From positions 1 to 28,104 of IMG/VR virus record IMGVR_UViG_3300030060_003653: a DNA stretch of 28,104 bases; one strand, written 5' to 3'. Under the pieces are notes generated by a model. The model was not told the DNA's origin. It saw only the letters and a program-made list of their open reading frames with translations, and did no database searches. Numbering within the stretch: the stretch's first letter is position 1; each line of letters begins with the position of its first letter. This document shows, one piece after another, positions 3,231 to 28,104 of this stretch. This DNA comes from a virus. A program made the position numbers and the translations under genes.

Positions 3231-4499
3231 CTAAACTATATAACTTGTATCAACATGGACTGGTTCTTTCCAGTTTGTTTTTTGTCCACCAATAAATGTG
3301 CAGCCATATCTAAATGCGTCTGCTGGATGTGATGCAAAATTGTGTATTGGTCTGTTTTTGAAACACTGATTTTTTTCATCCCATTTTTTTGAGTAAGCTT
3401 TTAATGCTTCAACACCCATTGCTGTATTTTGTCTGTCAAAATAACAATTAGGTAAAGCTTTTCGTACTGCCTCAATTCCATCTTCAATAGAAAGTTTTGG
3501 TGCAATATCAAATGATATACCTAATTCCAAAGCGATTTCCAACCTTGATTTTCCAAAAGCTCCTAATTCCCTAACTTTTATATCATGCGGAGCTATATGT
3601 CTATAATATTTATAAGGTTTGCTGTCCAGCAGGTCTGCATAAAAATCTAATCCTTCACCTGAGTTTTCTTCATAATCAATCACCCTAATTTGATCTCCAT
3701 GTCTTTGAACAAACCAAATAGCTGTAGAATCTTTTAAACCTAAATCCCACCAAGTTTCTGTATCTAGGTTTTCATCATAAGGCACAGATGTCATTCTTTT
3801 TCCTACTTCTAGCTTTTCTATAATAGCTCCATAATAAGAACCTGTGATTGCTGCTTGAAACGAACATTCAAACTCCTGATTATATAGATCATCTGACATG
3901 GTATTTTGTGCAGATCGCAATTCTTCTTTGTCTAAAATTTGTGTTTGAGATGCTTTGAAAACCCCTGTCCACCAACCTTTTTGTTGCATAGCTTCTTTGT
4001 GAAGTTTGTAAAAATAATTTTGACCTTTGGGTGTACCTATAAATACACACCATCCTTTCCTGTCGGCTAATGCTGGTCGGATAATTTCTGGAAACAATGT
4101 TGGACTAATATTCTGCGTTTCATCCATAACACATCCATCTAAAAAGATACCTCTTAATGCTTGATCATTCTCAGCACCTAAGATTGTTATTCTTGATCCA
4201 TTAGGAAAATCACATCTAAGTTCTGATTCATTAAATTTAACAAAGGGAATATTCTTGGCGAAATTTTTAATGTAATCCCATGCCGTACTTTTACCCTGTT
4301 TGAATGTTGGCGAAATAAAGGCATATCTAGGATTCGGCTGCTTATTAGTTAAAGCATCCCTTATCATGTGGTTAATGCACATTACAGTTTTGCCAGACCG
4401 CCTATGTGCCACAATAACATTGAATCTGCTTTTAGGAATTTGTGTGTGTAAAAATTTTTGAAGTTTTCTTGGTGAATATGGAATTACGATTTCTGACAT
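3231..4499 (-). CDS. terL: terminase large subunit
   Basis: A 422-aa packaging motor: an ATPase with a headful or site-specific nuclease. Walker A is AHRRSGKT at residues 31-38; Walker B is VMDE with D126-E127; the coupling motif is FIGTPKG near 153-159. The C-terminal RNase H-like nuclease shows its acidic residues in WWDLG (D252), in HDIKVREL in the middle, and in HPADAFRYG (D394). Length is on the compact side but complete for this family. Neighbours are the portal downstream (2-base gap) and a 57-aa gene upstream. The start ATG at 4499 has only a weak GGGG tract upstream. Confidence 0.95.
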   Translation of the reverse strand: MSEIVIPYSPRKLQKFLHTQIPKSRFNVIVAHRRSGKTVMCINHMIRDALTNKQPNPRYAFISPTFKQGKSTAWDYIKNFAKNIPFVKFNESELRCDFPNGSRITILGAENDQALRGIFLDGCVMDETQNISPTLFPEIIRPALADRKGWCVFIGTPKGQNYFYKLHKEAMQQKGWWTGVFKASQTQILDKEELRSAQNTMSDDLYNQEFECSFQAAITGSYYGAIIEKLEVGKRMTSVPYDENLDTETWWDLGLKDSTAIWFVQRHGDQIRVIDYEENSGEGLDFYADLLDSKPYKYYRHIAPHDIKVRELGAFGKSRLEIALELGISFDIAPKLSIEDGIEAVRKALPNCYFDRQNTAMGVEALKAYSKKWDEKNQCFKNRPIHNFASHPADAFRYGCTFIGGQKTNWKEPVHVDTSYIV

Positions 4500-7894: not shown

Positions 7895-8311
7895 CTAGAC
7901 CTTTCTAACTGGCTTTAGTAAGATGATCCCTTTTTCCTTTGCCTTTTCTAGCTTTCTTTTTTCGTACAAAATCTTTTGTTGCTTACTCATTTTAGTTCTT
8001 AATCGTAGGTTGTGCAAAAGGATTGATTGAAAGTTATCTTGTCCCCTGAATATAAACCTATTTGTATTACCTTTGCCTCTATTTTGCCATGTTATATATC
8101 CAAGCAACTGCAACCTGTCCAAATGCTTCACAAGGGTTTTAGAGCTTTTTAAACGCAATCTTTTTTTTAAGTAAAGGTGGCTAGGTGTACACCCTTTAGG
8201 AGCTGTCCTAAGCCGTCTAAGGAGCAGTAAAAGGCATTTCTGGGTAGGTGTTAAAACCTGATCATCTATAAGCTCATGCTCAACTTTTAAGAATGGTTTA
8301 CTTTTGTTCAT
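7895..8311 (-). CDS. winged-helix protein, replication-initiator-like
   Basis: A 138-aa protein. Residues ~7-90 read FLKVEHELIDDQVLTPTQK, then a helical block, then SKTLVKHLDRLQLLGYITW and a beta wing ending NTNRFIF, the pattern of the HTH_36/Rep N-terminal winged-helix domain. The C-terminal 45 residues are strongly basic. Such proteins in phages bind origins or act as regulators. With no phage polymerase in the window, an origin-binding role that brings in host replication is attractive but unproven. Its start lies 14 bases inside the upstream oxygenase gene. Confidence 0.65.
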   Translation of the reverse strand: MNKSKPFLKVEHELIDDQVLTPTQKCLLLLLRRLRTAPKGCTPSHLYLKKRLRLKSSKTLVKHLDRLQLLGYITWQNRGKGNTNRFIFRGQDNFQSILLHNLRLRTKMSKQQKILYEKRKLEKAKEKGIILLKPVRKV

Positions 8312-8969
8312 ATTGGGTCATTTCATCAAATATAACTGTTGTATTAAAACTAAAAGATATTCTTTCAGCATTATCATCATCACTAGAAAAAGGATAGACA
8401 ATATGTTTCATGTTGGCAGGAAATAAATAATAATCGCCCAAAATGGGTTGAACTAAATAATTAGCATTATTAAATATACTTTCAGACCCCTCACAAAACT
8501 CTATCCAACCACCAACCTGATGATGTTCTTTAGAATGATTATAGGGTATCATTTTAGGTATCTGTAAATATCCAACACAAGATAAATCAGGGTTCAATGC
8601 TTTATTAGAAAAATGAGTGTGTGTATGTAATGGATTATAATCGTTTGGTTTTTGTGTATTAGTCCATGCACTTTGAACTACACATTTTGCCATTTTATTA
8701 TTTTTATAATGTGCTTCTACATAGTGTCTAATAATGTGGTCAAAATATTTTTGTTTCCATTTCAACATTACGTCAGGACTAATCAATAATTCTTTATAAA
8801 CTTGTCCTGCAAGTCTATGACCAAAAGCATATTGTTTTGCTTTGTCTGGGTTTTGTCTTATGTCATAAAGGTCTTTTAAAAAATCATCTATTAATTCTTT
8901 TGGCAAAGTAGATTTGGCAATCGTTGAGCCAAATGGTTTTAATAATTTACATTCTATTTTATCTTTCAT
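8298..8969 (-). CDS. 2OG-Fe(II) oxygenase
   Basis: A 223-aa member of the 2-oxoglutarate/iron(II) dioxygenase superfamily, as found in cyanophages and pelagiphages. Visible features are the metal region NPLHTHTHFSNK (H115, H117, H119), CVGYLQIP strands, YLFPANMKHIVYPF with distal H189, and R203 in AERISFSFN for 2-oxoglutarate. These enzymes hydroxylate proteins, nucleic acids or small molecules; the substrate is unknown. It stands apart from the other oxygenases of this phage, between a PD-(D/E)XK-like protein and a winged-helix gene, overlapping both. Its type differs from the PiuC-like one at 24859. Confidence 0.8.
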   Translation of the reverse strand: MKDKIECKLLKPFGSTIAKSTLPKELIDDFLKDLYDIRQNPDKAKQYAFGHRLAGQVYKELLISPDVMLKWKQKYFDHIIRHYVEAHYKNNKMAKCVVQSAWTNTQKPNDYNPLHTHTHFSNKALNPDLSCVGYLQIPKMIPYNHSKEHHQVGGWIEFCEGSESIFNNANYLVQPILGDYYLFPANMKHIVYPFSSDDDNAERISFSFNTTVIFDEMTQYEQK

Positions 8970-9465
8970 TTTTAAACTCCGTTATTGGTTTTAAATTTTC
9001 AATGGGTACAGACCAAACATAAGGTCTTGTTGTAATATTAAAATTAGTCCAAGTTCCTTTCTTTCTTATATCTTTAGCAGAAATGTAGCCAAAAAATGTA
9101 TATATTGGTGTTTCATCTCCTACTAAAAAATAATAATCACTTTCTTTATACCCTTGTCTTATGATAAGATTGTTGGTTTTTTTTGTCATAAGTTGAGATC
9201 GTACTTGTATGCTTTTTCCATCAATATGTAAATCAGACCCTTTAAAATTATTTACTGAATGTGGAAAATAACTGTCCATTTTTTTTGCAAGTGCTTGTTC
9301 GCATATTGCACCTGAAACTGTCATACCCCATTGTTTATAAATATCAAAAGAAGCTCCATGACCCCAGCTTATATTCTGTCTCATGCTTTCTGTCTGTCGC
9401 AAAAGTCCTGTAATAGCAGAAGATAATATTTCTTCCCACTTTAATTCAATCGTTGGATAATCCAT
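8959..9465 (-). CDS. PD-(D/E)XK-like protein of a phage family
   Basis: A 168-aa protein. A central alpha-beta-beta core reads GAICEQALAKKMDSYFPHSV, then GSDLHIDGKSIQVRS, then strands and WSVPIENLKPITEF at the end. This pattern (E in the helix, D in SDL, then a (Q/E)VR strand, final VP..L.P) fits a phage family with a PD-(D/E)XK fold. The usual catalytic Lys is replaced by Arg in QVR and the preceding acid by Gln, so cutting activity is uncertain. First gene of the minus-strand island; ATG 9465 has no clear Shine-Dalgarno. Confidence 0.6.
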   Translation of the reverse strand: MDYPTIELKWEEILSSAITGLLRQTESMRQNISWGHGASFDIYKQWGMTVSGAICEQALAKKMDSYFPHSVNNFKGSDLHIDGKSIQVRSQLMTKKTNNLIIRQGYKESDYYFLVGDETPIYTFFGYISAKDIRKKGTWTNFNITTRPYVWSVPIENLKPITEFKNER

Positions 9466-10509: not shown

Positions 10510-10663
10510 TGGTATTTCACCAGAAGATATAAAAAGAATTATAAACAGTAGGGTTCTTGAAAAGCTAATTAAGGACAAAGCTAAGGAAGTTTATAATGAG
10601 GAAAAACAAAAAGAAAAAGAAGAAATAATTGGTAATGCAAAAGGAAAGGAGGGAACAATTTGA
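10496..10663 (+). CDS. hypothetical small helical protein, 55 aa
   Basis: ATG 10496 has GGAGGAG upstream and overlaps the nuclease gene by 14 bases; an earlier in-frame ATG at 10466 would place the ribosome site inside the gene. The sequence MIVCDGISPEDIKRIINSRV is followed by a Lys/Glu-rich helix. It sits between the nuclease and the annealase, so could be a partner of either. No family recognised. Confidence 0.55.
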   Translation: MIVCDGISPEDIKRIINSRVLEKLIKDKAKEVYNEEKQKEKEEIIGNAKGKEGTI

Positions 10664-11325
10664 CTAAAAACATTTATCAAAAATTAAAATCTGCTTCAGA
10701 GGAAGCAAGGATGGTTAAAAAAACACAAAAAAAAGGTGGAATGAATTTTAATCCATTGGAGCATGACGCAGTACAAGGTGTTGCTATGGAAGCTTTAATT
10801 AAAAATGGTTTATATCCATACTGCACTTACAAAGATTTTAATATACAAGATATGTTTGTGCAAACAACTTGTAAGATGACTATTGTAGATGTAGATAATC
10901 CAAAATCTTTTATCGAAATTGAAACTCATGCTATTGCAAAAACAGATAAATATGGTTCAGGAAACTGTATGTCTTACGCAAGAAAGTATGCTTTTTTAAA
11001 TGCTTTAAATCTAAGAACAGGCATGAAAGATGATGAGGTTGAAGCAAAGGATAGTGAAGATGGATATAATGCTGATCCACTATACAAAGCAACAGAAAAA
11101 GAAGTAGGTATGACAAAAAAACAAATTTCTTTGGGTAATAGAATTGAAGCTATTGAGGTTCATCTATCATCTAAGAAACCAGATTTGACCACTGTTAAAA
11201 AATTAATAATGGAATTTAAATCTGATAACAGAAACGACTATGGGAATTTTATCAGAAGTGAAGTTGGTAAAAGACTTGTAGTTTGTGAAAATAAACTAAC
11301 AAAACTCAAAACTAATAGGAGATAA
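10660..11325 (+). CDS. erf: ERF family single-strand annealing protein
   Basis: A 221-aa ssDNA-binding recombinase. The ERF signature is KYGSGNCMSYARKYAFLNAL (residues ~97-116) followed by an acidic stretch MKDDEVEAKDSED; upstream are NGLYPYCTYKDF and strands typical of the family. It anneals complementary strands during replication and recombination, working with the RecB-like nuclease two genes upstream. The start is TTG at 10660, supported by an excellent AAAGGAGGG 5-6 bases upstream and a TTGA overlap with the preceding stop; no ATG fits as well. The C-terminal ~70 residues are helical and basic. Confidence 0.85.
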   Translation: MTKNIYQKLKSASEEARMVKKTQKKGGMNFNPLEHDAVQGVAMEALIKNGLYPYCTYKDFNIQDMFVQTTCKMTIVDVDNPKSFIEIETHAIAKTDKYGSGNCMSYARKYAFLNALNLRTGMKDDEVEAKDSEDGYNADPLYKATEKEVGMTKKQISLGNRIEAIEVHLSSKKPDLTTVKKLIMEFKSDNRNDYGNFIRSEVGKRLVVCENKLTKLKTNRR

Positions 11326-15766: not shown

Positions 15767-16054
15767 TTATGGTTTATATAGGTCATAAGTTAATGTTAGT
15801 TCTTGGTTTGCTTTAATATCCTTGTCTGTTTTTAAAAACCATCTGTTGTTATGCTTTCTTTTGATGCAATTAGAATCATCAGCATGATTAATAAATCCTC
15901 CTAATGGAGTTCTGATAAGATCATTTTCAATCTCTATGTGTGTCATACCTATTGTAGTATCTTTTGGTATTTCAGTAAGACTAAACAAACCTAAGCCATG
16001 CACATCAGATTTTTTTATTGTTAAATAAAATGGTAATGGTTTATATTTAATCAT
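15767..16054 (-). CDS. SET-domain protein (putative protein lysine methyltransferase)
   Basis: A 95-aa minimal SET fold. Motifs in order: SDVHGLGLFSLTEI (residues 16-29, SAM-binding), GGFINHADDSNC (52-63, the NHxxxxN knot) and ANQELTLTYDLY (82-93, catalytic tyrosine region). SET proteins use S-adenosylmethionine to methylate lysines. Start ATG 16054 overlaps the Cys-rich gene (ATGATTAA); the longer frame to 16120 is only the other frame of that gene. No pre- or post-SET regions, as for small bacterial and viral SET proteins. Substrate unknown. Confidence 0.75.
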   Translation of the reverse strand: MIKYKPLPFYLTIKKSDVHGLGLFSLTEIPKDTTIGMTHIEIENDLIRTPLGGFINHADDSNCIKRKHNNRWFLKTDKDIKANQELTLTYDLYKP

Positions 16055-16154
16055 CTTCTTTGCAGGTGCAGTTATCACAAGTACAAAGTCCATATTCATC
16101 TGCATGAAGACCATCTTCACAATGACAATTATGATAACATTTTTTACACTTCAT
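16047..16154 (-). CDS. cysteine-rich metal-binding-like mini-protein, 35 aa
   Basis: MKCKKCYHNCHCEDGLHADE then YGLCTCDNCTCKEDD. Eight Cys occur as CxxC, CxC, CxC, CxC plus three His in 35 residues, a metallothionein-like density. It overlaps the SET gene by 8 bases, so the two are made together; SET proteins often need a Cys-rich zinc cluster, which this might supply in trans. No Shine-Dalgarno is clear. Confidence 0.5.
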   Translation of the reverse strand: MKCKKCYHNCHCEDGLHADEYGLCTCDNCTCKEDD

Positions 16155-23112: not shown

Positions 23113-23451
23113 TTAAGGACTTTTTTCATCAAAAATCTCTAAGTAACTTATCATACCCTCTATTTTATTAGCTGAAGCAGCTTGTATTTTAACAATATCT
23201 CCAGATTCTAAAACTAGGGGTGAGACTACACCATTATCTGTAGTGTCTGCTGCTAAATCTTTGTGATAAATTTTATAAGTAGCACTAGCTGATGAATCTG
23301 TTACAGATATTTCCACCTGTATTGCAGAAGAATCATCATTATTAATTTGTATGCTTTTTACAATAGCAGTTCTATTTGTGGGAACTGTGTAAACAGTTGT
23401 TAAATTAGTTGTACTTAGATTAAACCCTGCGTTTTTATATATATTAGCCAT
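23113..23451 (-). CDS. small structural (beta-sandwich) phage protein, 112 aa
   Basis: MANIYKNAGFNLSTTNLTTV then YTVPTNRTAIVKSIQINNDD and a strand-rich remainder with SSASATYK and LVLESGDIVKIQA. The TTVYTVPxNRTAIVKSIQI segment is a recurring structural-protein pattern in marine phages, near tail-fibre genes. ATG 23451 is preferred over 23487 because the longer form would include a hairpin. No ribosome site is visible; a hairpin at 23463-23490 lies 11 bases upstream. Confidence 0.7.
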   Translation of the reverse strand: MANIYKNAGFNLSTTNLTTVYTVPTNRTAIVKSIQINNDDSSAIQVEISVTDSSASATYKIYHKDLAADTTDNGVVSPLVLESGDIVKIQAASANKIEGMISYLEIFDEKSP

Positions 23452-23462
23452 AATAATTTGAA

Positions 23463-23490
23463 GGGGTAAACAAGGTGGATTGTTCACCCC
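23463..23490 (-). promoter_or_regulatory. hairpin in front of the structural gene
   Basis: GGGGT (23463-23467) pairs with ACCCC (23486-23490) and AACAA (23469-23473) with TTGTT (23480-23484), one mismatch between, around a 6-base loop. On the minus-strand transcript it ends 11 bases before ATG 23451, where a Shine-Dalgarno would be expected but is missing. Could be an RNase III site, partial terminator or translational control. Confidence 0.45.
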
Positions 23491-23503: not shown

Positions 23504-24157
23504 TCACTTTTTAAACCATGAAGGTAGTCCTAAATGCTTTCTTGTATCATAAATATTTTGATTTGCATTTTTAGACTTTTGGTCATTATAGTGTAGAAAA
23601 ACTTGACAACAATCGTTACCTTGAAATTCTTCTCTCCAATGTTCTAGTTCCATGCCTCTATAAACTAGCATATCACCAGGTTTTAAAACAACTTTAGTTC
23701 CTTTGTTATTGCTTGATACTGTAATTTTTTTACCATCAGGAATACCTACATTTTTTTTAGGTTCTAAATAAATAGCCCAAGCATCACCACCTAGATTTAA
23801 TGTTGTAGATATTTCACAGCTAAATCTATCTTTGTGTCTGTGTAGTATATCTCCTGTTTTATAAATCCTTGCATAAGAATATGTTGGGTTTAATTTTAAT
23901 CCTGTTTTTTTTTCCATGATAGGCAAAGTTCTCATTAATAAAGTTTCCATAGCTATATCTGCATAATGAGAATATGTGCCTGGAACTTGTTGATCTGCCC
24001 AAGTACCCCATTCTTCTGTAAAATTAGAAATATATCTTTCGTCAAATAAAGTTCTTGCAACTTGTCTTTTAAGTAAGAAATAATTGTAAACAAATGTAGC
24101 TATATCTTTTGGTACAGCTTCTTTAATGACACAATATTTATTTTTTTGGAAGTTCAT
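23504..24157 (-). CDS. 2OG-Fe(II) oxygenase (HxDR-type)
   Basis: A 217-aa dioxygenase. H108-x-D110 lies in ILHRHKDRFSCEIS, distal H173 in LEHWREEF, and strands TTLNLGGDAWAIYL and VLKPGDMLVYRG fill the double-stranded beta helix. This variant with HKDRxSCEIS is frequent in cyanophages and pelagiphages. ATG 24157 with AAAGGAG upstream is preferred over a 13-residue longer start. It overlaps the preceding oxygenase by 20 bases, so the two are co-expressed. Substrate unknown. Confidence 0.85.
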   Translation of the reverse strand: MNFQKNKYCVIKEAVPKDIATFVYNYFLLKRQVARTLFDERYISNFTEEWGTWADQQVPGTYSHYADIAMETLLMRTLPIMEKKTGLKLNPTYSYARIYKTGDILHRHKDRFSCEISTTLNLGGDAWAIYLEPKKNVGIPDGKKITVSSNNKGTKVVLKPGDMLVYRGMELEHWREEFQGNDCCQVFLHYNDQKSKNANQNIYDTRKHLGLPSWFKK

Positions 24158-24857
24158 TAGTATTGCTCCTTTCTTTTGATATTGCTGTTTCAACAACTTT
24201 AATATTCCAATGTATAAATCTAAAAGGTTCTAATCCTGCATCTACCGAAAATTCATGTGGAACATATCCTGGAAAAATAATCATAGTTCCTGGATTAGGT
24301 TTGTAATGAACTTGATTAGTACCCATTGTAATTTGTGATGGATTTTTTAAAGGTAACTTTGTCATTTCTGCACCAGGTCTTGGCTCATGGAATATAGGGT
24401 AAGATGTTTTGTCAGAACATTTTAAAAAATAAAATCCTGATACATGCTGATTCCAATGTTGATGTGTAGAATGATGACCTCCACCTTTTTCACTAAATTC
24501 TTGTACCCAAAATTCTGTAAAGTGTAAACTGTGGTTTTGTAAATTAAATCCTTGCCAATCTAAAAATTCATAAGATCGTTGTCCTATAAATTGAACTAAT
24601 TCTTTTACTTTAGGATCATTAGAAAAACTTTCACTGTGTTTAGACAAACCAAATGTACCAATATCTTTTTTCCATTTTGGTTCATTTTTTAATTTATCTT
24701 TTAAAAGTTTTTCTGCTTTCTTAATATATTTATCTGTTGTTTTAATTGCATTTTTTAAAAACATGGGTGCTTCTGCAATCCAGATTGGTGTTTGAAAATA
24801 AAATGCAGACTTAAAATCTACATGACCTTTTGGTTTATTACTTCCGCCTTGTATCAT
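24138..24857 (-). CDS. 2OG-Fe(II) oxygenase (2OG-FeII_Oxy_5-like)
   Basis: A 239-aa dioxygenase of the family with a HxH-type metal region: HHSTHQHWNQHVSGFYFLK (H132, H134), distal H201 in PGYVPHEFSV, and R213 in PFRFIHWNIK for 2-oxoglutarate. GTMIIFPG is the penultimate strand. A TTG start at 24878 is possible, but ATG 24857 directly after the preceding stop is more likely. Middle member of the oxygenase cluster. Confidence 0.8.
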   Translation of the reverse strand: MIQGGSNKPKGHVDFKSAFYFQTPIWIAEAPMFLKNAIKTTDKYIKKAEKLLKDKLKNEPKWKKDIGTFGLSKHSESFSNDPKVKELVQFIGQRSYEFLDWQGFNLQNHSLHFTEFWVQEFSEKGGGHHSTHQHWNQHVSGFYFLKCSDKTSYPIFHEPRPGAEMTKLPLKNPSQITMGTNQVHYKPNPGTMIIFPGYVPHEFSVDAGLEPFRFIHWNIKVVETAISKERSNTNELPKK

Positions 24858-24858
24858 A

Positions 24859-25503
24859 TTATCTAAAAGGATAGCCAAGATTCCATATTACTAAGCTATG
24901 CCTTACTCCTTTGGTTACTGGTTTAACTCTATGCCATACAAAGCTAGGAAATACCACTAAAGAACCTTTTGGTAATATTTCAGTACAGGCTCTGATATTT
25001 GGTTTTTTATCAGGGTCTAAGTTTCTGAAATCAAACTCTAGTTCTCCACCTTTGTATTCTTTTGGGTCTGTCAAACTAACTGTTACAGATAGTTTTCTTA
25101 TTTTACCTTTAGTTGGACCTTCTTCCATATAAGGTTTATCCCAACTATCACAATGCCAATCATAATACTGACCTTTTTTGTATATTGTAAATTGACAAGA
25201 TTCTGAAAAATTCCAATCAAAATTCCAACCTGCATTTTTATTTGCTTTATGTACATAAGGTTGAATTTCTTTGTATATCCATTTATCGTTCATCCAAACA
25301 ATATTTGAATCTCTTTTTTTTTGTAAATCTTTTATTTCTTCTTTACTAAGAGGTTGTTTATTTAAATCTCTATCTCTGCCGTAACCACCTGTGATAGCCA
25401 TAATCTCTCTATTTTTTTCTGCTTTACCATATTGAACAATCATATCGCAAATTCTTGGCGGTATAACAGATTGAAAATACCAGTAATAATTAAATATATT
25501 CAT
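24859..25503 (-). CDS. 2OG-Fe(II) oxygenase (PiuC/prolyl-hydroxylase-like)
   Basis: A 214-aa dioxygenase with the PKHD/P4Hc pattern: H117-x-D119 in YYDWHCDSW, KLSVTVSLTDPKEYKGGELE in the core, distal H191 in FPSFVWHRVKPV and R201 in GVRHSLVIWNLG. Related enzymes hydroxylate prolines or other residues or siderophore-related targets; the phage substrate is unknown. Start overlaps the preceding gene by 14 bases. Confidence 0.85.
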   Translation of the reverse strand: MNIFNYYWYFQSVIPPRICDMIVQYGKAEKNREIMAITGGYGRDRDLNKQPLSKEEIKDLQKKRDSNIVWMNDKWIYKEIQPYVHKANKNAGWNFDWNFSESCQFTIYKKGQYYDWHCDSWDKPYMEEGPTKGKIRKLSVTVSLTDPKEYKGGELEFDFRNLDPDKKPNIRACTEILPKGSLVVFPSFVWHRVKPVTKGVRHSLVIWNLGYPFR

Positions 25504-26041
25504 AATTAATAGTTAATAAAACATTTAGTTGTTTAGAGTTATTTTTAGTTATAAAGTATTTTTGTGTAGCAGGGAACATATAGAAATGATTGTTATGCAC
25601 AGGTAAATGCCATGTTCTATTTTTTCTTCTATTATCATCATATTCAATAACAAGTTCACAAGAATCTTTTGCACAATCTAAAGCATAAATTAATGTATAA
25701 TCAGGTGAGTTTCTTAAATCTACAGGTTCTATTTGATGTCTTAAATAAGATTGTTCTTTAGGATGTAATACATTACCATGTTGTAATTTTTCAACTAAAG
25801 TAAATCCATGCTCTACTCTAATATTATCTCTAATATAATCTTTAAACCATTGTAAGGGTTGTGAGAAAGGCACTTCATAATCTTCGTATGAATATGCTTT
25901 TGAATTTGTGTTGATTTTTTTTTGATCTATAAAAGATTTAATAATATCGTTTTTAATTTTATCTCTATTAATTTCAAAACCTTTAGGAAGATTGACAGGA
26001 CCATGTATTAAATCAATTTCAGACAGCACCACCTTCTGCAT
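25490..26041 (-). CDS. oxygenase-like beta-helix protein lacking metal ligands
   Basis: A 183-aa protein whose C-terminal half (YTLIYALDCAKDSCELVIEY, then HNNHFYMFPATQKYFITKNN and LNVLLTINYEY) follows the strand order of the neighbouring oxygenases, with FPATQKYF where they have FPxxxxH. I see no HxD, so it may be a catalytically inactive relative or use another chemistry. First gene of the cluster; coupled to the next. Similar genes lie beside oxygenases in marine phages. Confidence 0.5.
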   Translation of the reverse strand: MQKVVLSEIDLIHGPVNLPKGFEINRDKIKNDIIKSFIDQKKINTNSKAYSYEDYEVPFSQPLQWFKDYIRDNIRVEHGFTLVEKLQHGNVLHPKEQSYLRHQIEPVDLRNSPDYTLIYALDCAKDSCELVIEYDDNRRKNRTWHLPVHNNHFYMFPATQKYFITKNNSKQLNVLLTINYEYI

Positions 26042-26044
26042 AAA

Positions 26045-26488
26045 TTAAGCTAAACTATTTTCTATATCCCAAGATTGACCAGACTCATTCCAGTTATATG
26101 ACCAACTGTGAGTTCTAGCTTCGTTTTGTGAAGATTGTTCTGCTGTTAAAGCAGGAGGATCACCTGCTGGTGACTGCCATCTAGCTTCTGCTGTATTAAG
26201 AACCCAACTAGCAAAAGGTTTTTTAGGTAAAAATAAATCATTGTCCTCATCATAAATCATACCAATACCTGCATAGTTACCTCTTAAAGGTGTTCCGCCA
26301 TTTTTGTGTTGTCCGCCATGTGTATTATAAGATGTTTTTACCCAATGAGGATAGTTGTGTATTCTTTCTAAGAATTGTCTGCCAACTTCTTCATCTTCTA
26401 TACCATCAGCATTTTTACAATCTTTATCAGCTACAACATGAACTGCTATAACTTTACTATTAATTCCTAATTTTGCATAATGTGCCAT
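26045..26488 (-). CDS. tail-fibre-associated conserved phage protein, 147 aa
   Basis: MAHYAKLGINSKVIAVHVVA then VKTSYNTHGGQHKNGGTPLR, GNYAGIGMIYDEDNDLFLP and KKPFASWVLNTAEARWQSPA, ending in SYNWNESGQSW. This is a highly recognisable protein of cyanophages and pelagiphages, nearly always beside tail fibres; function unknown, perhaps structural. A strong AAGGAG precedes ATG 26488. Confidence 0.8.
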   Translation of the reverse strand: MAHYAKLGINSKVIAVHVVADKDCKNADGIEDEEVGRQFLERIHNYPHWVKTSYNTHGGQHKNGGTPLRGNYAGIGMIYDEDNDLFLPKKPFASWVLNTAEARWQSPAGDPPALTAEQSSQNEARTHSWSYNWNESGQSWDIENSLA

Positions 26489-26526: not shown

Positions 26527-27876
26527 CTATTGAAATTTATACCTTATTACTACTATTCCTGATCCTCCTTGACCTGATGTTGTTGCGTCAGGTGGACTTA
26601 TATAATTTCCACCTCCTCCTCCACCGCCACTATTTGCGGCTGCGTTAGATGCTGGATTTCCTGGACTAGCTGCACCTGCTGTACCACTACCGCAAGGACT
26701 AGCTGCACCTGCTGTTATACTTTCAGGTGTGCTTGATGCTCCTCCTCCACCACCTGATTTTGAAATTGGTGAACCAGGTATATTTGTTGTTCCACCTGCT
26801 CCACCTCTACCGCTTTTATTTGGAGGTCCTGATCCTGCTTGACCTGCTTCTGTAGCACCGCCACCGCCACCCATAGCATTCAAAGGTGCTGCTGATCCTG
26901 TGCCTCCAGGATTGCCTTGAGGAGGTGAAACTGGAGGTGTATTTCCAGTACCTGCAGCTCCTATTCCTGAAGTACCATAAGAACCACCCCCACCTGATCC
27001 TCCATTTCTACAACCAGTACCACTTTGTCCTCCACCTCTAGCTCCTCCAGCAGATGTTATTGTTGAAAATACTGAATTAGCACCTGGAGTGCCTTCTGCG
27101 TTTGATGGTGCAGATGGTGCATTTGTTCCACCTGCTCCTACTGTTATTGGATAAGTTTGCACTGAAACTGGTAAGCCGTCTGCTGCTACTATTGGCGAAG
27201 CTGTATAAGAATCAAAAGCTGGTGCTTTACCTTCTCTAAAACCTCCACCTCCTCCACCGCCACCATATCTACCTGCACCACCTCCACCTCCAGCAACGAC
27301 TAAATAACTTACTTTATTAGAACCACCTGAATTACCAGCATTAGTAACTTGAAAACAACCATTTGATGTAAAAGTATGAATTTTAAAATTTCCACAAGTT
27401 GTTATCGTACCACCTGTTGCAGCAATAAACTCTGCTCCTAAAGCACCAACATCATCATCATTAACTGCTTTCCAACCTTTAGTTCCATCAACATAAATCA
27501 TTGTGATTGATTGACCATTTGTTTTTAAAGTGCTATTAAAACAGTTACCACACATTTTTGAACTATTCCTACAAACTGTAACATTGTTAGTGCCAAAAGT
27601 TCTAGCATAATCATTTATAGAAACTATATCTCCAGCACTAGGACTTGCAGGTAAAGTTACAGTAACCGCACCGCCAGTCGTATTAACAAAATACCCCTTA
27701 CCACTTACAGAAGTAAAAGGTGAAGTTTTGGCAGTCGTACACCAGTCAACTGTTCCTGTTCTACCAAATCCAGTTTGTGTAGAACCACAAGCTAGAGTTA
27801 CTGCTGTGCATGGTCCACCTAATGTAAGTGTGCTGCCTGTTCTTTTTTCTATTTTATTTACTTTAATTGTACTCAT
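26527..27876 (-). CDS. glycine-rich tail fibre/adhesin, 449 aa
   Basis: N-terminal MSTIKVNKIEKRTGSTLTLG is the typical attachment part of cyanophage/pelagiphage fibres, followed by a beta-rich section (VTVTLPASPSAGDIVSINDY). The C-terminal ~260 residues are extremely Gly-rich with runs of five or more Gly (AGGGGGAGRYGGGGGGGGF), ending GSGIVVIRYKFQ. Poly-glycine-II type bundles of this kind bind host receptors (as in S16-type adhesins). About ten Cys occur in the first 180 residues. Probably the receptor-binding fibre. Confidence 0.8.
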   Translation of the reverse strand: MSTIKVNKIEKRTGSTLTLGGPCTAVTLACGSTQTGFGRTGTVDWCTTAKTSPFTSVSGKGYFVNTTGGAVTVTLPASPSAGDIVSINDYARTFGTNNVTVCRNSSKMCGNCFNSTLKTNGQSITMIYVDGTKGWKAVNDDDVGALGAEFIAATGGTITTCGNFKIHTFTSNGCFQVTNAGNSGGSNKVSYLVVAGGGGGAGRYGGGGGGGGFREGKAPAFDSYTASPIVAADGLPVSVQTYPITVGAGGTNAPSAPSNAEGTPGANSVFSTITSAGGARGGGQSGTGCRNGGSGGGGSYGTSGIGAAGTGNTPPVSPPQGNPGGTGSAAPLNAMGGGGGATEAGQAGSGPPNKSGRGGAGGTTNIPGSPISKSGGGGGASSTPESITAGAASPCGSGTAGAASPGNPASNAAANSGGGGGGGNYISPPDATTSGQGGSGIVVIRYKFQ

Positions 27877-27883
27877 AATTTAC

Positions 27884-28104
27884 CTAATTTTGAAATTTAT
27901 ATCTTAAAACCACTATACCAGAACCTCCTACTCCTCCACCTGATGGAGCTGCACAAGCTCCTCCACCTCCACCACCACCTAGATTAGTCGTTCCATTTGT
28001 TCCTGATCCTCCTGGGGATGGTCCACCAGCACCTCCGCCGCCTGGTCCACCAGCTGCACCATTAGGTGAGTTTCCTGGATTGTTAGCTCCTCCACCTCCA
28101 CCAC
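27884..28104 (-). CDS. second glycine-rich tail fibre (5' part outside window)
   Basis: The last 73 residues are visible: Gly/Pro/Asn-rich repeats ending GSGIVVLRYKFQN, nearly the same end as the 449-aa fibre. It is thus a paralogue, 7 bases before the next fibre start, in tandem and coding on the same strand. The N-terminus lies beyond the right edge. Confidence 0.75.
   Translation of the reverse strand, partial: GGGGGANNPGNSPNGAAGGPGGGGAGGPSPGGSGTNGTTNLGGGGGGGACAAPSGGGVGGSGIVVLRYKFQN

Follow-up and report, generated by a model that had tools for sequence, protein, structure and literature searches.

A cassette of 2OG-oxygenase-fold genes inherited with glycine-rich fibres in marine phages and its possible link to fibre proline

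Why do marine phages carry clusters of 2OG-Fe(II) oxygenase genes? These clusters are a long-standing unexplained feature of such phages and are usually assigned to host metabolism. Several reports describe phages with many 2OG genes (PMC3037559; PMC9599517; PMC10665884, which cites 24 for cyanophage S-SCSM1) and pelagiphages of the HTVC023P type with co-located 2OG-Fe(II) "AMG" genes and a "ferrochelatase" (PMC9599517). Similarity of marine phage 2OG proteins to the human prolyl hydroxylase EGLN3 has also been reported (PMC12774648). We address the question in a virus contig of 28,104 bases (IMG/VR record IMGVR_UViG_3300030060_003653), a phage genome fragment referred to in its entirety as the window. 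The nearest cultured relative of this phage is Pelagibacter phage HTVC106P, and Pelagibacter-type hosts are the commonest bacteria of the ocean. A first-pass annotation had singled out three canonical 2OG-Fe(II) oxygenases of different subtypes in a row, a related fourth gene and a fifth oxygenase elsewhere, and had considered so many of them notable. The genes are present, but their number is not in itself new (PMC9599517; PMC10665884).

Gene order and predicted folds in the window

The genes belong to a minus-strand operon with the transcription order Gly-rich fibre(s), G, D, C, B, A and backbone genes. The complete fibre gene (26527-27876), the proposed substrate, encodes 449 amino acids with 23% Gly and 6.0% Pro and matches PF21722 (Gly_rich_2, 6e-19). 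A second Gly-rich fibre gene is cut by the window edge, and its 3' part (27884-28104) encodes the same ...GIVV.RYKFQ C-terminus. The N-terminal domain of the complete fibre contains several Cys (GPC, LACGS, DWCTT, VCRNSSKMCGNC), which is odd for a virion fibre unless they are disulphide- or metal-linked. Gene G (26045-26488) encodes a small protein (phrog_7759) that usually comes next after a Gly-rich fibre gene, oxygenases present or not; an upstream ORF of at least 200 amino acids was found in 409 of 478 G loci, and 271 of the 279 usable ones had at least 17% Gly. Four overlapping or abutting ORFs follow at the coordinates reported by the first-pass annotation, namely D (25490-26041), C (24859-25503), B (24138-24857) and A (23504-24157), with likely ATG starts at 26041, 25503, 24857 and 24157, respectively (a TTG at 24196 is also open for A). 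C starts inside D, the ATG of B lies one base past the stop of C, and the ATG of A lies inside B. Because this arrangement is that of a co-translated set, A-D probably form a co-translated cassette.

C and B are recognized by sequence profiles. C is a P4H/PKHD-like oxygenase that matches PF13640 (2OG-FeII_Oxy_3; 1.2e-15, 58.7 bits vs a cut-off of 27) and phrog_61 (3.5e-38), and H117, D119, H191 and R201 of its HxD..H..R site are invariant in 20 homologues. Its nearest relatives in the PDB, the PKHD-type hydroxylases PiuC/YbiX (3dkq; 9ghl, PiuC), have this site in common with C, but C scores far below the PKHD YbiX/PiuC equivalog cut-off (61.2 vs 143 bits) and is located in a fibre operon. B is of the PF13759/TIGR02466 type; it passes the Pfam threshold for PF13759 (3.6e-13, 50.2 bits vs 27) but stays under the NCBIfam cut-off for TIGR02466 (48.8 vs 62.5 bits). 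The HxH..H residues H139, H141 and H208 are invariant in 22 B/PF13759 relatives, even in those only 16-23% identical, and the second His of B is therefore the ligand pattern of the family rather than a local mutation. The same site occurs in the TIGR02466/PF13759 proteins of marine bacteria that are the PDB relatives of B (3bvc, 8e-11; 2rg4, 9e-9). The fifth oxygenase, E (8298-8969, minus strand), lies outside the cassette and is confirmed, likewise as a PF13759 protein (2.7e-12, 47.4 bits vs 27). It neighbours an ORF matching phrog_18407 (8298-9465 for the pair, minus strand) with a GSDLHIDGKSIQVRSQ stretch resembling a PD-(D/E)XK nuclease, and also adjoins a LexA-like DNA-binding gene (7895-8311).

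Gene A goes by another name in the literature. It matches phrog_2954 (2e-48), a family called "ferrochelatase" in PHROGs and in RefSeq records; there was no significant Pfam match, and searches for a ferrochelatase family in Pfam (E<=1) and NCBIfam (E<=0.1) returned none, the label being solely PHROG's own. The AlphaFold model of A (pLDDT 92) has a double-stranded beta-helix (DSBH) fold. In Foldseek the best match is a bacterial prolyl-4-hydroxylase (4iw3, E 5e-8), and 613 PDB chains fall at E<=0.001, with 2OG oxygenases dominant among the matches listed; in VIA, Z reaches 16.1 to 2OG oxygenases (rmsd 3.0 over 190 residues to 5erl). In an alignment of 51 close homologues the HxDR..HWR motif, with H108, D110 and H173, is invariant, and the invariant Arg residues include R97, R111 and R175. 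Remote cyanophage relatives keep HDR/HR wherever both motifs align, except for HDQ in the second S-SM1 copy. Pseudomonas putida prolyl-4-hydroxylase (4iw3/4j25) and PHD2/EGLN, which are the best Foldseek matches, have the DSBH and HxD..H in common with A, but identity is only about 13%, and the 51 homologues have no conserved Arg/Lys about 10 residues past the distal His, the usual C-terminal site for the 2OG C5-carboxylate. A PDB sequence search gave no confident relative of A, and profile-profile comparisons between A and C and between D and A were without a match; the case that A and D are homologous to 2OG enzymes thus rests on structure rather than sequence similarity, and for A also on the conserved triad. 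Given the predicted fold and the invariant HxDR..HWR, the "ferrochelatase" of the literature is, by its model, a protein of 2OG-oxygenase fold, and the label of phrog_2954, on which two ecological papers are based (PMC9599517; PMC11561400), is very probably wrong. The predicted fold, the HxD..H site and the lack of a match to the ferrochelatase profiles searched speak against a ferrochelatase role for A.

D, the fourth gene that had been thought related, shares the 2OG fold without conserved metal ligands. Its AlphaFold model (pLDDT 89) gives VIA Z scores of 16.3 to 2rg4 (rmsd 3.1 over 169 residues) and 15.9 to 3bvc, the same structures that are relatives of B, and bacterial prolyl-4-hydroxylase and PHD2/EGLN are also among its top matches. 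However, D lacks the site of the 2rg4/3bvc-type proteins: across 32 homologues none of the His residues is conserved, and hence there is no conserved HxD/E/H...H triad, the invariant residues being D114, N137, F156 and P157. Sequence searching of the PDB yielded no confident relative of D, and profile-profile comparison with B reached just 4.6% probability, while comparison with C gave nothing. With a confidently predicted 2OG fold that is devoid of any conserved His, D looks like a pseudo-oxygenase. There is precedent for an inactive partner of this fold in the fungal heterodimer TlxI/TlxJ, where the inactive TlxI boosts the active TlxJ (PMC12141560). The profile searches and structure predictions that the first-pass annotation had proposed as checks thus bear out a row of three families with conserved sites (A, B and C), although "canonical" is too strong a word for an HxH site in B and for an A without the usual Arg.

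Inheritance of the cassette with one fibre type

HTVC106P shares the backbone of the window. Gene I (23113-23487, minus strand), directly downstream of A-D, marks the junction with this backbone and is 94% identical over its best segment to HTVC106P gp46. At the equivalent site HTVC106P has no Gly-rich fibre, G or A-D and carries other late genes with low Gly content, but it keeps a homologue of E (gp11, 3435-4097). Hence, there are at least two alternative fibre modules, and A-D are part of one of them; E is not, being a phage backbone gene unrelated to the cassette.

A-D, the Gly-rich fibres and G travel as one module across unrelated phage backbones. The order fibre(s)-G-D-C-B-A was found in most of about 240 loci annotated with profiles of these genes, and the genes downstream of A belong to several unrelated backbones. 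In anchored counts, which are not independent since each comes from the best 80 related sequences, loci found through A with more than 4 kb upstream had C and a Gly-rich fibre in 36/36 cases and G in 33/36; loci found through C had A downstream in 47/47 and an ORF of more than 20% Gly upstream in 40/42, with the fibre family itself upstream in the remaining two; and loci found through the fibre had G, D and C in all 27 with room for them. D was present in 112 of 114 loci with the fibre type of the window vs 12 of 27 with other Gly-rich ORFs (raw counts, kinship included). HTVC023P carries A-D, G and Gly-rich fibres, A-C also occur in HTVC033P, and in the myovirus HTVC008M a Gly-rich ORF adjoins A, a C-type gene and other 2OG genes. 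The cyanomyoviruses S-CAM8, S-MS29 and P-RSM4 share an arrangement in which a 2OG gene is followed by A, G and several more 2OG genes. The HTVC023P-type clusters discussed in PMC9599517 comprise the same gene families as A-D of the window; the available text of that paper reads A as a ferrochelatase partner and connects the clusters neither with fibres nor with a pseudo-oxygenase. In our analysis A has a predicted 2OG fold, and it is the fibre that defines the module.

The association is not universal. Gly-rich fibres with G but without nearby oxygenases are found in HTVC025P, CRP-207 and Melnitz, so the oxygenases are not generally required for this pair. Remote homologues of A in Syn30 and S-RIM32 adjoin DNA methyltransferase or helicase genes, not fibres, and the A family may therefore have more than one role. 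A host origin of A was considered and rejected: 14 matches were found in genome contigs, and these look like phage contigs because other module genes mostly lie on the same contig. Only two remote matches, one in Brasilonema and one in an alphaproteobacterium, may be cellular.

Some 2OG clusters located close to genes for fibres or necks have further neighbours. In Mosig EXVC030M (locus L256) the cluster adjoins haem oxygenase and bilin reductase genes, in HTVC008M (L006) a tryptophan halogenase gene, and in cyanophages (L250/L251/L390) a carbamoyltransferase gene. In 2OG clusters of both pelagiphages and cyanophages, small proteins that carry the annotation "DNA endonuclease V" have HxD..H..R motifs (L002, 7922-8404; L256, 5663-6175) and look like further 2OG oxygenases.

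Fibre proline and nearby oxygenases

G follows Gly-rich fibres with and without oxygenases and is therefore a neutral anchor for a substrate test. In an exploratory set of about 14 annotated phages, Pro made up 3.7-6.5% of fibres beside oxygenases vs 1.7-2.6% of the others; the fibre of Bellamy has 7.2% Pro and an A homologue about 10 kb away. Two further scans were anchored on oxygenase-poor G lineages, and 143 non-redundant loci were compared. Oxygenases within 5 kb were counted by similarity only, those farther away being scored as absent (e.g., Bellamy). Median fibre Pro was 2.4% in loci without a nearby oxygenase and rose from 2.5% for a single one to 4.4% for two and 6.0% for three (Spearman 0.77). 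In a held-out set from which the exploratory phages were excluded (n=133), fibres with two or more nearby oxygenases had a median of 5.8% Pro vs 2.5% for those with fewer (Mann-Whitney p=1.5e-21), and phylogenetic regression with GC as covariate, on a tree built from one short protein (G), gave an increase of 2.2 points of Pro (p=2e-7).

The effect is specific in the full set. Among the 20 residues Pro had by far the lowest p (4.8e-6) and was the only one to survive multiple-testing correction; enrichments of Lys and Cys disappeared after phylogenetic and GC correction. The Pro excess was largest inside the Gly-rich stretches of the fibres (6.8 vs 1.7% in Gly-rich windows), and Pro-Gly dipeptides were 4.6 times commoner in oxygenase-linked fibres. 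Protein G showed no Pro effect, and other, neighbouring ORFs went in the opposite direction. Moreover, oxygenase-rich loci are AT-rich, which would, if anything, lower Pro. The best single predictor of fibre Pro was the presence of A (p=8e-7), followed by C, while B showed no association. About eight independent state changes (gains or losses) underlie these statistics, and six of seven clade contrasts were in the expected direction. Hence, Gly-rich fibres are Pro-rich mainly when oxygenases adjoin, and this suggests chemical finishing of the fibres by the virus itself.

A search of the accessible literature did not find the linkage to a fibre module, the re-identification of the "ferrochelatase", the pseudo-oxygenase D or the proline association, nor any paper with hydroxylated phage fibres or mass spectrometry of them. 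We consider the predicted 2OG fold of A, the module of A-D, fibre and G across backbones, and the association with fibre Pro to be new.

Possible functions of the cassette

Our preferred explanation, to which we assign a probability of about 0.5, is that late in infection the cassette hydroxylates proline residues in the Gly-rich fibre, D being a partner without catalytic activity. Its grounds are the folds, the conserved sites, the synteny, the co-inheritance and the Pro association; the late expression (from gene position), enzyme activity, proline target, role of D and benefit are what we infer from them. A-D would be the late cassette of a Gly-rich fibre (adhesin) module of the virion, and fibre and enzymes would be produced jointly from a single operon. 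A and/or C would hydroxylate prolines in Gly/Pro-rich segments of the fibre before assembly, and B may oxidize another residue. D, catalytically dead, would probably be a scaffold or substrate-presenting partner, as TlxI is for TlxJ, although that pair works in a small-molecule pathway and the partnership of D is our proposal. The benefit could perhaps lie in fibre stiffness, solubility, or altered receptor binding or binding surface of a polyglycine-type fibre. The broader formulation of a mobile "fibre plus finishing enzymes" module, whose dioxygenases and dead scaffold put hydroxyproline or another proline oxidation into a Gly/Pro-rich fibre, is more tentative; if true, it would amount to collagen-like chemistry within a bacteriophage virion, in a non-collagen fibre. 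Several observations count against proline hydroxylation: Gly-rich fibres with G exist without oxygenases, the state changes are few, B has no link to Pro, A lacks the usual Arg, homologues of A sit beside DNA genes in Syn30 and S-RIM32, and a substrate does not follow from fold similarity.

The same synteny would be expected if the cassette modified the host surface (LPS sugars, outer-membrane proteins or lipids) or fibre-attached glycans and travelled with the fibre through a shared receptor. The presence of three families and a scaffold points to several reactions, and carbamoyltransferase and tryptophan halogenase genes also occur in cyanophage clusters; yet such a role does not by itself predict Pro enrichment specific to fibres and their Gly-rich windows, and the cassette of the window contains no sugar-modifying gene, so we regard it as unlikely. 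The first-pass annotation had proposed hydroxylation of virion proteins or of the cell envelope rather than DNA. Inheritance with Gly-rich fibres and the specific enrichment of Pro favour the virion, with cell-envelope or metabolite substrates as the possible alternatives. The metabolic reading has been put forward in print, through 2OG/NtcA for cyanophages (PMC3037559) and, in the available text of PMC9599517, through haem iron and a ferrochelatase partner for pelagiphages, the co-occurrence with oxygenases being reported also in PMC11561400. In such a role, drawdown or sensing of 2-oxoglutarate and iron would steer host nitrogen or energy metabolism and the "ferrochelatase" would handle haem iron. 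The predicted 2OG-oxygenase fold of A with its HxD..H site, the lack of ferrochelatase matches in Pfam and NCBIfam, and the fact that metabolic genes need neither follow one fibre type nor track its composition make this quite improbable.

Linkage without function seems to us about equally improbable. Fibre loci are exchange hot spots, and a hypervariable cargo could hitch-hike on fibre replacement with Pro merely marking one fibre lineage, which would fit the small number of independent transitions (about eight). However, catalytic residues and gene order are strongly conserved across divergent backbones, and the Pro association holds up under phylogenetic regression and strengthens as the number of genes grows. 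AlkB- or TET-like modification or repair of DNA or RNA, in line with the DNA repair proposed for 2OG proteins in Syn9 (PMC2984593), the methyltransferase beside A homologues in Syn30 and the weak similarity of A to a Tet-like dioxygenase profile (E 0.3), is the least probable, given the fibre-linked context in pelagiphage-type loci and the distance of A-D in the window from the recombination gene ERF (10660-11325). A predicted proline target in one fibre type yields a simple mass-spectrometry test on cultured pelagiphages. Elsewhere in the late region of the window, near the lysis genes, a gene at 15767-16120 (minus strand) encodes a small SET-domain protein (PF00856, 1.6e-9) with a lysine-methyltransferase-type fold, which is unusual in a phage this small.
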